From: Thermococcus sp.
Lineage (GTDB): Archaea; Methanobacteriota_B; Thermococci; Thermococcales; Thermococcaceae
Direction of reading: 5' to 3'
NCBI RefSeq assembly: GCF_026988555.1
Contig: NZ_JALSLB010000056.1
Span: 1 to 40,997, forward strand
Length of the DNA: 40,997 bases
Of the stretch, positions 5,659 through 28,426 are shown in pieces (position 1 is the stretch's first letter; each line of letters opens with the position of its first letter). The notes below the pieces were generated by a model, which saw only the letters and a list, made by a program, of their open reading frames with translations, was not told the DNA's origin and made no database searches. Made by a program: the position numbers and the translations under genes.

Positions 5659-5752
5659 CGAACGTCACCGTGGCCCCTTGAATGAAGACCTTTTAAGGGT
5701 TCCTCAATGAAAGCCTCGCGTACCTAAACCTTTAAAAACTCATCCGGGCTCA

Positions 5753-23527: not shown

Positions 23528-23811
23528 GCATCCACCCCCATGTCGGTTATCAGAGCAAGTGCCAGGGCCGTCAGTGCCACGTCCACCACCAGTGTTGTGA
23601 GCATGAGGGTCGCGGGGAGCGGGTCAACGGGGTTCGCGGGCATCACCGGGAACGTTCGGTTTGGTACGTAGCCCGTCCCGATGAAGAAAAGTACAAGCCC
23701 AACCGAGAGCACGTTTACGGAGAGAACCTGCTTTATCGGTTTCTCGTTTACCATGATGCCGTAGAGACCTATTAACATTACTAGAACCCCAACGGTCTCC
23801 GCGTCAATCAT
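23524..23811 (-). CDS. mrpC: Mrp antiporter subunit C (NuoK-like)
   Basis: 95 aa with three membrane helices, homologous to NuoK/MbhG. Typical features are IGLYGIMVNEKPIKQVLSVN in the first loop and the TLVVDVALTALALAL third helix. Start ATG 23811 behind AGGTGGG; it lies 8 bases inside the mrpB gene. Part of the proton/Na+ path next to MrpD. Confidence 0.92.
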   Translation of the reverse strand: MIDAETVGVLVMLIGLYGIMVNEKPIKQVLSVNVLSVGLVLFFIGTGYVPNRTFPVMPANPVDPLPATLMLTTLVVDVALTALALALITDMGVDA

Positions 23812-24211
23812 GGTCAACCCACCTGGACAGGAGATAAAACGTAAGGATAAACGCGGCGGCAACCTTTAAGGCCACCCCAACGTTGAATAGTACGATCGTG
23901 CCCCCCGGAAGGTAAGGCCTCAGAAAGTTGAAGAAGAAGCCCCCGAACAGGAGACCGGCCAGTGCAAGGGCCGTGAGGAACAGGCCAGAAAACCCCTCCA
24001 ATAAACTGACCTCCCCTCCGGGAAAGTGCCTTTTTACCCATCTTGGGCCGTACGCGGTCATCAGGAGGATGGCACTGACCGCCAGGACCACACCAGCCTG
24101 AAAACCGCCCCCTGGGCTTGCGTATCCGTACAGAGCCAGGTAAGCCCCGTAAGTTACCAGAAACGGTGCCACCAGCGTGGTCGTTGTCTTAACCACTAAG
24201 GTCATCCCCAT
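23804..24211 (-). CDS. mrpB: Mrp antiporter subunit B
   Basis: 135 aa, four membrane helices, MnhB/MbhF family. GYASPGGGFQAGVVLA is the family hallmark. Start ATG 24211, overlapping the upstream gene by 10 bases, with AGGGGAG before it. Overlaps mrpC by 8 bases. Confidence 0.93.
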   Translation of the reverse strand: MGMTLVVKTTTTLVAPFLVTYGAYLALYGYASPGGGFQAGVVLAVSAILLMTAYGPRWVKRHFPGGEVSLLEGFSGLFLTALALAGLLFGGFFFNFLRPYLPGGTIVLFNVGVALKVAAAFILTFYLLSRWVDHD

Positions 24212-24453
24212 CTCCCCTTCCCTCCCAATATGAGCGAGAAGCCGGTAGCAGCGGCAAACAGAATGGCCACCTCCCCAAGGCTGTCGTAACCCCTCCAGTC
24301 AGCTAGAATAGCCGTGACCAGGTTGGGTATTCCCACGTCCTTCCAGTGGGTCACGTAGTAGGTGTAGCTCCCTCCAATGGTCTTCGAGTAATCGAGACCC
24401 CAGAGCGTCGCCAAGAGCGCACCAGCTATCAGGATTGCAAGCAGACGCCTCAC
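24202..24453 (-). CDS. MbhE-like subunit (MrpA C-terminal/MrpB-related)
   Basis: 83 aa, two membrane helices. Equivalent of MbhE of membrane-bound hydrogenase, which corresponds to part of the MrpA C-terminal extension. Key segment: VTAILADWRGYDSLGEVAIL, where RGYDTLGE-like sequence is conserved. Start GTG 24453 overlaps the preceding stop (GTGA). Confidence 0.88.
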   Translation of the reverse strand: MRRLLAILIAGALLATLWGLDYSKTIGGSYTYYVTHWKDVGIPNLVTAILADWRGYDSLGEVAILFAAATGFSLILGGKGRWG

Positions 24454-24680
24454 TCCCCTACCCCCCTAACAGCGTAGAGGAAGAGTCCGGTGAGCACTGC
24501 CCCGACAACCACAGCGGACAGGGCCACGTCGGGGGCCCTGAGCATGATAAGCACGAGCACGAACACTAGGCCAAGGAGACCGTAGCGGATAACCGCCCTA
24601 ACCGGTTCCCTGGATTCCACCACCGAGACGGCCAGGAAAACCATTGCTACCAGAAGGACGCTAAGGATGGTCCCCACCAT
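24450..24680 (-). CDS. DUF4040 subunit (MbhD-like, MrpA C-terminal helices)
   Basis: 76 aa, three membrane helices. Equivalent of MbhD. The signature LIMLRAPDVALSAVVVGAVL is that of the MrpA C-terminal DUF4040 region. Start ATG 24680, inside the last 20 bases of mrpG in another frame. Confidence 0.88.
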   Translation of the reverse strand: MVGTILSVLLVAMVFLAVSVVESREPVRAVIRYGLLGLVFVLVLIMLRAPDVALSAVVVGAVLTGLFLYAVRGVGE

Positions 24681-24975
24681 ACATATCCACCACCACTTTG
24701 GGTTTTATCCCACGTTTGTAGGCTCCCCTCGCTATTGCATGGGATAGCATGGGGTTGATGAGGGCTATAAGGAAGGCGAGCAGTATGAACTTGAGCCTTA
24801 TGAGGGGGGGCGCATTTACGGAAACGGCAAGGGCCAGCAGTATGCTCATTGCCCCGCCGGTGTCGCATTTGGAGGTCGCGTGAAGTCTGGTGTACACGTC
24901 GGGGAAACGAAGGAGACCCAAAGCTCCGAACAGCATTATGAACAACCCAAACGCCAGGAGGACGAACTCGATCAC
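24661..24975 (-). CDS. mrpG: Mrp antiporter subunit G
   Basis: 104 aa, three membrane helices, MnhG/MbhC family. GALGLLRFPDVYTRLHATSK is the conserved first-loop motif. Start GTG 24975 overlapping the mrpF stop (GTGA), with GGAGGTGGG upstream. The C-terminal hydrophilic tail is typical. Confidence 0.93.
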   Translation of the reverse strand: MIEFVLLAFGLFIMLFGALGLLRFPDVYTRLHATSKCDTGGAMSILLALAVSVNAPPLIRLKFILLAFLIALINPMLSHAIARGAYKRGIKPKVVVDMYGGDHP

Positions 24976-25244
24976 CTTCCCACCTCCAGGTACCTGGCTG
25001 TTATGAGGCCGCCCACGGCGTTTACCATGAGGAGGACTACAGCCACGTCTAGGAGGTAGTACGCGTCCAGCACTACCGAGAGCACCGCCACCATAACGAC
25101 CACCTTCGTCGTGGCAGTGTTGAGGGCAACCATCCTATCGGCCAAGGTCGGACCGAACACGACCCGGTAGCTGACCACGGCGGCCGTAAAGACCAGGAAC
25201 CAAACGGTGTACCTGAGGGTCACCAGAAAATTTTCTTCAGCCAT
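24972..25244 (-). CDS. mrpF: Mrp antiporter subunit F
   Basis: 90 aa, three membrane helices, MnhF/MbhB family. The signature is FGPTLADRMVALNTATTK. Start ATG 25244 lies 25 bases inside the end of mrpE in another frame, so translation is coupled. Confidence 0.93.
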   Translation of the reverse strand: MAEENFLVTLRYTVWFLVFTAAVVSYRVVFGPTLADRMVALNTATTKVVVMVAVLSVVLDAYYLLDVAVVLLMVNAVGGLITARYLEVGR

Positions 25245-25825
25245 TCCTCCAAATCCCCCTTAATTATTCTCCCTGCCCTCTCACCGTCCAGCGTCTCCAC
25301 GTTGATCCAGTGAACGTACAAATAAGCTTTCCCGAGCTTTTTCTCCACATCCAGCGTCAATGTTCCCGGTGTTAGCGTTATCGAGTTAGCGAGGATCGTC
25401 AGGCCCGTATCAGAGTAGAGATCCGCCTCGATCTTAATGATGCCAGGGGTTATGTCCAGGAGGATAACGTTTCTCACGACGCGGAGGTTGCTCTCAAGGA
25501 GGCGGAACGCCATGATGAACAGGTACTGAGGAACCACAAAAAGGAAGATGTAGAGGGACTTGATGAGAAGGTGCCCCCTCCCCCGTATATCCTCCGTCAG
25601 CATGTCCCTCATTATCACCGCGATGAGCAGCGTGACCACAGCGGCTATGAGCAGGTGAACCTCATCCCCCCAACCCGCCACCAGCAGCCAGAAAGTGAAG
25701 AGGACCACCCAGGTTACGGCGACCCTTTCCCACGGGGGGAGCTTCATCGCCTCGTAGCTCTCGTAAAGAACCCTCCTCTTGATGTCTTCGATACGTTCTT
25801 TGAGGTAGAAGTGAACCCTGCTCAT
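25220..25825 (-). CDS. mrpE: Mrp antiporter subunit E
   Basis: 201 aa. The MnhE/MbhA core (about 45-195) has three membrane helices and the conserved ANSITLTPGTLTLDV strand. The first 45 residues form an additional charged helical N-terminus (KERIEDIKRRVLYESYEAMK). First gene of the Mrp operon. Start ATG 25825 has no ribosome site; a TATA box 28 bases upstream indicates a leaderless mRNA. Confidence 0.93.
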   Translation of the reverse strand: MSRVHFYLKERIEDIKRRVLYESYEAMKLPPWERVAVTWVVLFTFWLLVAGWGDEVHLLIAAVVTLLIAVIMRDMLTEDIRGRGHLLIKSLYIFLFVVPQYLFIMAFRLLESNLRVVRNVILLDITPGIIKIEADLYSDTGLTILANSITLTPGTLTLDVEKKLGKAYLYVHWINVETLDGERAGRIIKGDLEEWLKKIFW

Positions 25826-25968: not shown

Positions 25969-25999
25969 CTACGGCCCGCTAGTGATATCGGTGATGTTC

Positions 26000-26404
26000 A
26001 TGATTAAAGCCGGAGAATACAAGGTCAAGGAGGGGCTTTACTATACCAAAGACCACGAATGGGCCCAGGTTCTTGAGGACGGGACGGTTCTCGTGGGCAT
26101 AAGCGACTACGCCCAGAAGGAGCTCGGTGACCTCGCCTACGTTGAGCTTCCGGAGGTTGGAAAGGAGGTCAGCAAAGGCGATGTCCTTTGCGAGCTTGAG
26201 AGTGTCAAGGCCGTCTCCGAGGTCTACGCCCCTGTCAGCGGCGAGGTGGTTGAAGTCAACGAGGTTCTTGAGGACTCCCCCGAGGTCCTCAACGAGGAAC
26301 CCTACGAGAACTGGATAGCCAAGCTCAAGCCGACCAACCTTGAGGAAGAGCTCAAAGGGTTAATGGACGCAGAAGCCTACGCCAAGTACCTCGAAGAGAT
26401 TTAA
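26000..26404 (+). CDS. gcvH: glycine cleavage system H protein
   Basis: 134 aa lipoyl carrier protein of the glycine cleavage system. The lipoylated lysine is Lys70 in CELESVKAVSEVYAPVSGEV. The N-terminal YYTKDHEWAQV and ISDYAQKELGDLAYVELPEVG are classical. Start ATG 26000: GGTGA at 25990-25994 is 5 bases upstream; ATG at 25994 and GTGs before it overlap the site. The P, T and L components are not in this window. It may also accept octanoate or lipoate for other enzymes. Confidence 0.95.
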   Translation: MIKAGEYKVKEGLYYTKDHEWAQVLEDGTVLVGISDYAQKELGDLAYVELPEVGKEVSKGDVLCELESVKAVSEVYAPVSGEVVEVNEVLEDSPEVLNEEPYENWIAKLKPTNLEEELKGLMDAEAYAKYLEEI

Positions 26405-26549: not shown

Positions 26550-26578
26550 TCTTTTTAACCAGGTTGATGGGTGGTCAC

Positions 26579-27220
26579 GTGATAGGGCTCCTGAAGTATT
26601 TCCTGCTCCTCTACGGAGGGCTGTTTGCAATAACAAACCCAGTTGGAGCGGTCCCCATGTTCCTCAGCATTACACATGACCTTGACCCCGTAAACCGCAG
26701 AGAGATAGCCAATAAAACGTCGGTCTCGGTGATCCTGACCCTGCTGACCTTCGCCCTCATCGGGCAGTGGATATTCAAATTCTTCGGGTCAAGCGTCGAT
26801 GCGTTCTCCATAGCAGGAGGGATACTCCTGTTCAAAATGGGCCTTGAGATGCTCTCCGGGAAACTCTCATCCGTGAAGATCAGTCGCGAGGAAACCGAGG
26901 AGTTTGGGGAGGACGTCGTTACCCTTGAAGAGGTCGCAATAATCCCCCTTGCGATCCCCCTGATCTCCGGTCCGGGGGCCATAACGACGGTCATGATATA
27001 CATGGCGAAGAGCGGAACCCTGCCTGGAAAACTCACCGTCATGACGACGGTAGTCACGATAGGCCTAACGGTCTGGCTCGTCCTGCACTCCGCAAACAGG
27101 ATACAGGAACGTCTCGGTAGGGTGGGGATAAAGGTCATGACCAGGATGATGGGCCTCATACTGACCTCTATGGCGGTTCAGATGATAATAAACGGGGTTA
27201 AAGGGGCCTTTGGGCTCTGA
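26579..27220 (+). CDS. MarC family integral membrane protein
   Basis: 213 aa, six membrane helices. MarC/NAAT family; the name derives from a reported neutral amino-acid transporter in Thermococcus, but most members have no assigned role. Conserved parts are FAITNPVGAVPMFLSITHDL, IAGGILLFKMGLEML and IIPLAIPLISGPGAITTVMI. Start most likely the GTG at 26579 behind GGGTGGT; an ATG at 26567 is the alternative. It is divergent from the C/D sRNA. Confidence 0.9.
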   Translation: MIGLLKYFLLLYGGLFAITNPVGAVPMFLSITHDLDPVNRREIANKTSVSVILTLLTFALIGQWIFKFFGSSVDAFSIAGGILLFKMGLEMLSGKLSSVKISREETEEFGEDVVTLEEVAIIPLAIPLISGPGAITTVMIYMAKSGTLPGKLTVMTTVVTIGLTVWLVLHSANRIQERLGRVGIKVMTRMMGLILTSMAVQMIINGVKGAFGL

Positions 27221-27240
27221 GGAAACCTTTTAAGGTTTCC
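27221..27240. promoter_or_regulatory. perfect 20-bp palindrome containing the DUF1884 gene's TATA box
   Basis: GGAAACCTTTTAAGGTTTCC is its own reverse complement. Its centre CTTTTAAG is the only TATA-like element before the ATG at 27265 (centre 34 bases upstream). A repressor bound here would block TBP. It begins right after the marC stop, so a role as an RNA hairpin at the marC 3' end is the alternative. Confidence 0.6.
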
Positions 27241-27264
27241 CTTCAACCCCCATCCGGTGGTAGT

Positions 27265-27546
27265 ATGAGGGGAGACCTTATCCGTGTTCTGAGTGCCATA
27301 GAGGAGAAGGCCAATGAGCTCAAGATGGACGGTTATCAGCCGGACGTGGTGTTGTTCGGCGCCGAAGCGTACGAGTACGTAAAAGCCCAGGTTGCCGAGG
27401 AGTTTGGAGGAGAGGAGGAGGTTCTGGAACTGTCCGGAATAACGGTCAGGATCCTCGATGAACTCGACGGCGACGGGGTCGTTGTAGACTCCAGCGCCCT
27501 GGGTCTGGGACTCGGCGGTGCCAAGCGCTTTAGGGTTGTTGAGTGA
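27265..27546 (+). CDS. DUF1884 protein, possible family 4 (A-domain) encapsulin
   Basis: 93 aa. Starts with a helix (RGDLIRVLSAIEEKANELK), then alternating strands and helices (PDVVLFGAEAYEYVKAQVAE) and ends with VVVDSSALGLGLGGAKRFRV. This fits DUF1884, a Thermococcales family whose Pyrococcus structure resembles the HK97 capsid A-domain and which has been proposed as a truncated encapsulin. Known relatives often sit beside a metabolic enzyme taken to be cargo; here the neighbours are marC upstream and a convergent CitG-like gene that overlaps its last 17 bases. GGTGG at 27256-27260 precedes the ATG. Family likely; function unknown. Confidence 0.75.
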   Translation: MRGDLIRVLSAIEEKANELKMDGYQPDVVLFGAEAYEYVKAQVAEEFGGEEEVLELSGITVRILDELDGDGVVVDSSALGLGLGGAKRFRVVE

Positions 27547-28426
27547 AGCGGTACCCCCTGAGCAGCAGTAGACTCAAAGCCACAGCCATCACGTCGGCCA
27601 GACTTCCAGGGTTCCTCAAGTCCCCCTTCTCCCTCATAAAGGCGTCGAGTTCTTCAGCGCTCATCTCCCCGTTCAGGACCCCTTTGGCTTTTCTCATGAC
27701 CAGTCCCGCTTCCTCCATCCCAGCCTTCCTAATTATCAGGGTATCAGGGACCGTTGCCAGCAGCTCAAGAAATGCTCTCCTCACAGCATTCTCAAGGGAA
27801 TCCTCCTTAACCATGGAGTACAGACGTACAAAGGTTCTATAGCTGAGCTCGTAGCCGTTTATCCACTCACAGAACACCAGTTCCCTATCGCAGCTGATCT
27901 CTGCCAGCCTCTTCAGGTTGACGCTGTCCCTGAAGACCTCCCGAAAAGAATCATCGCTGTAGACGTCGTACTTGACACCGCCCGGGATGCCCTTGGGATT
28001 CGCGAGACGTATTGCCCTGTAGAGCTCCATCGTATCCCGTGCCGTGGATTCGCCTATCAGCCGCACCGCCCACTCCCTACCCTCAATCATGTTCCTTCCG
28101 GCCGCAAGCCCGATGACCAGGGGAATGGAGAGCGCGGTTACCCCAAAACTGGGGTTGGCATCCTGAACCTCCTTCGAGTTCTGAACGGCCCTTTTTATTA
28201 GCTCCCCAATGCCCGCCTCATTGAGTCGGTACGTGCCCCTCCTCAGCAGATCACCGACTTTCGTGGCCTCGTGAAGTATGTCCACCGTCCAAGTCTCGGC
28301 AAATAGGAAATTGTAAAAGCTCAGATCGTCGAAATCGCGGTAGCGATTCACGTTGCCTGGTTTGGGAATCGCGGCCTCCAGAAGGGGCCCCAGTGTGAAC
28401 GCTTTGATTATCCTCCACCGTTCCAT
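27530..28426 (-). CDS. triphosphoribosyl-dephospho-CoA synthase-like (CitG/MdcB family)
   Basis: 298 aa. Family shown by LLEAAIPKPGNVNRYRDF at the N-terminus and by the C-terminal KGDLRNPGSLADVMAVALSL. Bacterial CitG makes the prosthetic-group precursor of citrate lyase from ATP and dephospho-CoA. No citrate or malonate lyase gene is visible here, so the archaeal member probably acts on another dephospho-CoA or nucleotide reaction. ATG 28426 follows directly on the stop of the small membrane protein gene, so it is the third gene of the PspC operon. Confidence 0.85.
   Translation of the reverse strand: MERWRIIKAFTLGPLLEAAIPKPGNVNRYRDFDDLSFYNFLFAETWTVDILHEATKVGDLLRRGTYRLNEAGIGELIKRAVQNSKEVQDANPSFGVTALSIPLVIGLAAGRNMIEGREWAVRLIGESTARDTMELYRAIRLANPKGIPGGVKYDVYSDDSFREVFRDSVNLKRLAEISCDRELVFCEWINGYELSYRTFVRLYSMVKEDSLENAVRRAFLELLATVPDTLIIRKAGMEEAGLVMRKAKGVLNGEMSAEELDAFMREKGDLRNPGSLADVMAVALSLLLLRGYRFTQQP

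Follow-up and report, generated by a model that had tools for sequence, protein, structure and literature searches.

Gene content of the locus

The window (the whole stretch of 40,997 nucleotides that was analyzed) carries on its plus strand, at 27265 to 27546, an open reading frame encoding a 93-aa product with the N-terminus MRGDLIRVLS. This A-domain gene (Family 4A, PF08967/ENCP4, formerly DUF1884) was assigned by Pfam, a match to PDB 2PK8, an AlphaFold2 (AF2) model, Foldseek, and a tree. On the same strand, across a 44-nt gap, it is preceded by the gene of a MarC family membrane protein (26564 to 27220; PF01914, E-value 2.9e-58), for which the GTG at 26579, located after a GGTGGT, is the likelier start. 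Before marC lies gcvH, encoding the glycine cleavage H protein (25982 to 26404, plus strand; PF01597, E-value 2.4e-46). A CitG-family gene on the minus strand (27530 to 28426; PF01874, E-value 4.6e-46) converges on the A-domain gene and overlaps it tail to tail by about 17 nt (27530 to 27546). CitG was the steadiest neighbor: in 47 of the 57 Family 4A loci compared it lies a short way downstream in convergent orientation; eight of the ten loci that deviate belong to genus g12. MarC was found upstream of the A-domain gene in most relatives of genus g1, and the placement of gcvH before marC is shared only with the sister species (G025). An Mrp/Mnh-type Na+/H+ antiporter subunit run (MnhE, MrpF, and MnhG matched; 23804 to 25825, minus strand) adjoins gcvH and sits where the local gene order diverges from that of most relatives.

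The earlier note had remarked that no cargo enzyme gene adjoins the A-domain gene on the same strand. This holds for enzymes, but MarC, a reported accessory of OsmC-type Family 4A loci (PMC8346489), is directly upstream with gcvH before it. The OsmC ortholog of this genome was detected on contig C29 (L078, G000:C29) beside its old neighbors, a radical-SAM-like and a glutamine-amidotransferase-like gene (both named by eye), and a break has therefore parted OsmC from marC. The other flank of OsmC on C29 is now a glutamate-synthase/sulfide-dehydrogenase-like gene. Two things account for the missing enzyme neighbor: the rearrangement that moved OsmC, and the promoter that 4A genes across the family have of their own.

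The A-domain protein is a Family 4A member

In the Pfam search the A-domain protein matched PF08967 at an E-value of 2.1e-26 (92.3 bits against a cut-off of 31.4), and it was found to be 51% identical to PF0899 of P. furiosus (PDB 2PK8; E-value 1.5e-25). No other credible relative emerged when PDB sequences were searched with a profile; pentatricopeptide, antitoxin, and other PDB matches were discounted as short, weak, or repeat-driven. The AF2 model, for which 39 family members served as input, had a pLDDT of 89.5. With this model Foldseek placed 2PK8 on top (TM 0.95), followed mostly by HK97 capsid structures (probability 0.97 to 0.98, TMq 0.56 to 0.58, E-value 0.05 to 0.1), and viral major capsid proteins were repeatedly present among the BFVD matches. 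The predicted fold is that of 2PK8, with a weaker likeness to the HK97 capsid A-domain, and as modeled the protein has the dimensions of a stand-alone HK97 A-domain fold of about 100 aa. The model and the Foldseek results agree with the claim of Andreas and Giessen (2021; PMC8346489) that Family 4 consists of the HK97 A-domain alone. The proposal in the earlier note that the product belongs to DUF1884, with an HK97 A-domain and Family 4 membership, was right.

The tree gave a fully supported split between 4A and 4B, with the product of 27265 to 27546 on the 4A side. The protein is also nearer to 2PK8 than to the 4B copy of its own genome (27% identity), and it has the long loop of 4A. Its sequence places it in PF08967 and among the "A-domain encapsulins" published as Family 4A. 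The Pfam label "type 4B" for all of PF08967 was not adopted, because 2PK8 (a dimer in its crystal form) is placed in Family 4A (PMC8346489) and because the tree separates the two groups. A viral origin was not traced by sequence: the A-domain protein had no significant match in PHROGs, and other members gave only scattered weak matches. The BFVD matches also included A-domain-sized phage or viral proteins with balanced TM-scores (A0A068EMQ5, 82 aa; A0A127AW84, 128 aa; F8WPQ2, 87 aa; and A0A6J7VQR9, 95 aa), which suggests that tailed phages may have stand-alone A-domain-like proteins as well.

A conserved core promoter precedes the A-domain gene

Promoter elements were scanned for from -400 to +262 (about 660 bp) at the 57 Family 4A loci, which represent six genera. 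Since the training matches came from positions -50 to -22, the profile applied to a locus was built from the other loci, excluding that locus or its group. The best promoter-like site was found about 35 to 43 bp before the start codon at all 57 loci, irrespective of the upstream gene, and a score of at least 8 was reached by 55 of them compared with 3.4% of random 42-position stretches and none of 21 4B genes. At the locus under study the elements, all on the plus strand, include: (i) a BRE-like purine/A-rich element, GGAAACC, at 27221 to 27227, as defined by the position profile of the 57 loci; (ii) a TATA box, TTTTAA, at 27228 to 27233 (-37 from the ATG), the position at which the top 18-mer falls in 57 of 57 loci; and (iii) a Shine-Dalgarno-like GGTGGT at 27256 to 27261. 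A TATA-like box was present at -37 to -41 in all 37 aligned loci of the genus, and GGTG occurred within the 16 nt preceding the start codon at 48 of the 57 4A loci. Published spacings between TATA box and start site of about 23 to 27 bp (PMC4247193 and PMC5316973) would put transcription initiation some 23 to 25 bp past the TATA box, in the predicted region 27251 to 27256, with the CA step at 27251 to 27252 as the best candidate and a leader of about 10 to 14 nt; a start close to 27252 would give about 13 nt. Judged by this conservation, the TATA/BRE elements of the A-domain gene represent a genuine and ordinary core promoter. The TATA element noted previously at the center of a repeat thus exists and is kept among relatives, in the role of a plain core promoter element.

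The inverted repeat is near-perfect and lineage specific

Immediately 3′ of the marC stop codon, the 20-mer GGAAACCTTTTAAGGTTTCC (27221 to 27240), with TTTTAA inside it, forms an inverted repeat, GGAAACCTT-TT-AAGGTTTCC, that overlaps the core promoter. It had been described as a perfect 20-bp palindrome. The dyad on the TATA box was confirmed, but its perfection was not: the reverse complement, GGAAACCTTAAAAGGTTTCC, has two mismatches to GGAAACCTTTTAAGGTTTCC, and the repeat is composed of two perfect 9-bp arms around a 2-nt noncomplementary TT center. The dyad is near-perfect, not perfect; its inner CTT/AAG pairs are supplied already by the TATA box, and the core promoter makes up 14 of the 20 bases.

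The chance level of such repeats (arms no shorter than 9 bp, spacers of 0 to 4) was estimated on 577 kb of Thermococcus sequence (the window and relatives), with dinucleotide shuffles as reference. Thirteen repeats were observed versus 9.3 in the shuffles; taken as a class, they therefore occur at the rate expected by chance, with an extrapolated frequency of a few tens per genome. No repeat with such arms fell on a TATA box in any of three shuffle sets, and one in that position is locally rare. However, because real promoters already supply CTTTTAAG, only six further pairs need to match, which is expected roughly once in 4,000 per promoter carrying CTTTTAAG. With more than 1,000 Thermococcus start sites reported (PMC4247193), one TATA-centered repeat with 9-bp arms per genome or per few genomes would not be surprising. 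A 9-bp-arm inverted repeat around TTTTAA, GGAACCCTTTTAAGGGTTCC, was also observed in another species in other surroundings (G024:C22:33809-33828, L068, minus strand).

When the 37 aligned genus loci (the window and 36 relatives) were compared, the 9-bp-arm repeat was confined to the window and its sister species (G025, L066). The other 35 relatives keep the gene and the TATA box at the same place, with repeat arms of at most 4 bp, so that only one of the 36 other loci conserves the repeat. By the earlier note's own reasoning, a palindrome missing from close relatives that retain the gene speaks against its proposal, and it is missing from 35 of those 36 loci. The sister species shares the gcvH-marC-A-domain order and has 92% DNA identity to the window over 7 kb. 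Between the two, the 20-mer shows 0 changes, the adjacent leader 5 in 24 positions, and the gcvH-marC interval 24 in 160. The repeat could be constrained between these species, although too little of the right arm lies outside the core promoter to decide this.

Sites differing from the 20-mer at no more than 3 positions were sought across 61 genomes, and no further near-perfect one was found in the genome of the window, which contains this site and two 3-mismatch sites only. With the center left free and at most 2 arm mismatches allowed, 8 sites were found in this genome, within the range of the relatives and of a reversed-pattern control and hence with no enrichment. The same palindrome was thus not seen as a set of similar sites at other promoters of the genome. 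A regulon drawn from a near-match at window position 5684 and the palindromic TTTTAA of G024 (L068) was considered and dropped, as the surroundings differ.

Family 4A and 4B genes probably differ in transcriptional organization

The PF08967 family was found in 60 of 61 genomes of the genus, normally as two copies, 4A and 4B, and the only taxonomic family of the class in which it was detected is the one to which the window belongs. The 4B gene of this genome is of the DeoC type (G000:C65:14549-14785), and its start overlaps the deoC stop; none of the 21 4B genes has a promoter of its own scoring at least 8. The gene directly upstream of the 57 4A genes varied: MarC in 18, OsmC in 11, the hydrogenase large subunit in 6, a distant MarC in 15, and none of these in 7. 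At 13 4A loci the A-domain gene keeps its promoter even though about 0.8 to 2.5 kb of other sequence, in many cases containing ORFs, sets it apart from MarC; in other genera MarC is missing from the 4A locus or a hydrogenase takes its place. The genome of L108 (6285 to 10477) encodes a protein that shares about 98% identity with 2PK8; there the hydrogenase large subunit gene and the A-domain gene are about 2.6 kb apart, and the gap holds four opposite-strand ORFs, one of them an ABC-type ATPase. The "hydrogenase operon" is interrupted in the very lineage of the 2PK8 crystal structure.

Family 4A has been typified as a two-component operon with an upstream enzyme, an arrangement given as usual and not defining, with orphans also listed (PMC8346489). 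Here gcvH and marC are upstream, OsmC is on C29, and the gene has its own promoter. Given the promoter at 57 of 57 loci, the ORFs at L108, and the displacement of OsmC, 4A genes are therefore probably monocistronic, and their cargo is not readable from adjacency. The A-domain gene and its local neighborhood probably never shared one transcription unit. The two-component operon claim is weakened for 4A and strengthened for 4B.

A simple promoter with a probably fortuitous repeat

Overall, we consider it quite likely that this is an ordinary Family 4A A-domain (encapsulin-like) gene of a Thermococcus-group archaeon, transcribed alone from a canonical BRE/TATA promoter and with a short leader carrying a Shine-Dalgarno motif, and that the repeat is lineage specific and probably fortuitous. 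TBP would bind TTTTAA at 27228 to 27233 and TFB the A-rich element preceding it; transcription would start about 23 to 25 bp downstream of the TATA box, giving a short leader with the Shine-Dalgarno-like GGTGGT. The repeat may have grown from the self-complementary CTTTTAAG core. The protein would be a small oligomeric scaffold, most likely one that binds a partner encoded elsewhere.

The earlier note had proposed that a dimeric repressor on the palindrome competes with TBP. In its lineage-specific form, a repressor on GGAAACC-N6-GGTTTCC over the TATA box would block TBP/TFB in the window species and its sister. Archaeal repressors do bind over TATA elements, for example EnfR in T. onnurineus (PMC10570040), the repeat is identical in two species that are 92% identical, and a TATA-centered repeat is rare in shuffles. 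However, 35 further relatives in the genus have this gene and promoter but not the repeat, the symmetry of the repeat is imperfect, no more near-perfect sites or regulon were found in the genome (the 8 sites with at most 2 arm mismatches fall within the range of relatives and control), repeats with 9-bp arms occur at chance frequency overall, and a single target would be unusual. The proposal was thus not supported; we regard such an operator as quite unlikely, and we infer that a dedicated repressor at 27221 to 27240 is unlikely to exist. That the marC transcript ends in an RNA hairpin formed by the repeat, serving as a terminator or stabilizer, is more improbable still. The repeat does start straight after the marC stop and folds as an 8-bp hairpin, but the fold is unexceptional (z -1.2, with 23 of 200 shuffles as good), a U-tract is missing downstream, and relatives with the same marC end lack such a repeat.

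A different alternative makes the A-domain gene the last of a gcvH-marC-A-domain (or ancestral OsmC-MarC-A-domain) operon, with MarC or OsmC as the functional partner. The shared strand, the 44-nt gap, the adjoining MarC in many relatives, and the published OsmC/MarC operon type speak for it, and read-through from marC into the A-domain gene may occur. We nonetheless judge it unlikely: the gene has its own promoter at every 4A locus, including the 13 with long intervening sequence, OsmC is on another contig here, other genera lack MarC or have a hydrogenase instead, and the true operon pattern of the family, overlap without a promoter, is that of 4B with deoC. Extended to all Thermococcaceae, the preferred reading would make 4A genes autonomous and separately transcribed, with hydrogenase, OsmC, and MarC as passengers, the assigned 4A cargos wrong, and the true partner elsewhere; the chances of this generalization we rate as about even.

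The claim of the palindrome as a regulatory feature was thus not upheld, and the picture of Family 4 encapsulins is corrected, with 4B in a real deoC operon and 4A under its own promoter in every lineage tested while its upstream neighbors are swapped. Because 4A genes have their own promoter and changing upstream neighbors, their function is better sought by pull-downs and genetics than by gene adjacency.

Comparison with known systems

The protein resembles Family 4A and 2PK8 (PMC8346489) in its PF08967 membership, length of about 93 aa, HK97 A-domain fold, helix at the N-terminus, and extended loop separating the main helices, and the locus resembles OsmC-type 4A loci in its MarC neighbor. 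Unlike the two-component Family 4A systems (PMC8346489), the enzyme is not upstream here and the gene has its own promoter. The 4B protein (DeoC type) of the same genome shares the Pfam family and the fold core, but is only 27% identical, lacks the long loop and a promoter, and has a start that overlaps the deoC stop. EnfR binds a pseudo-palindrome over a TATA element in T. onnurineus (PMC10570040), and the inverted repeat covering the TATA element here is similar to such operators in layout only; in contrast to them it is unconserved, occurs at a single site, and has no known binder.
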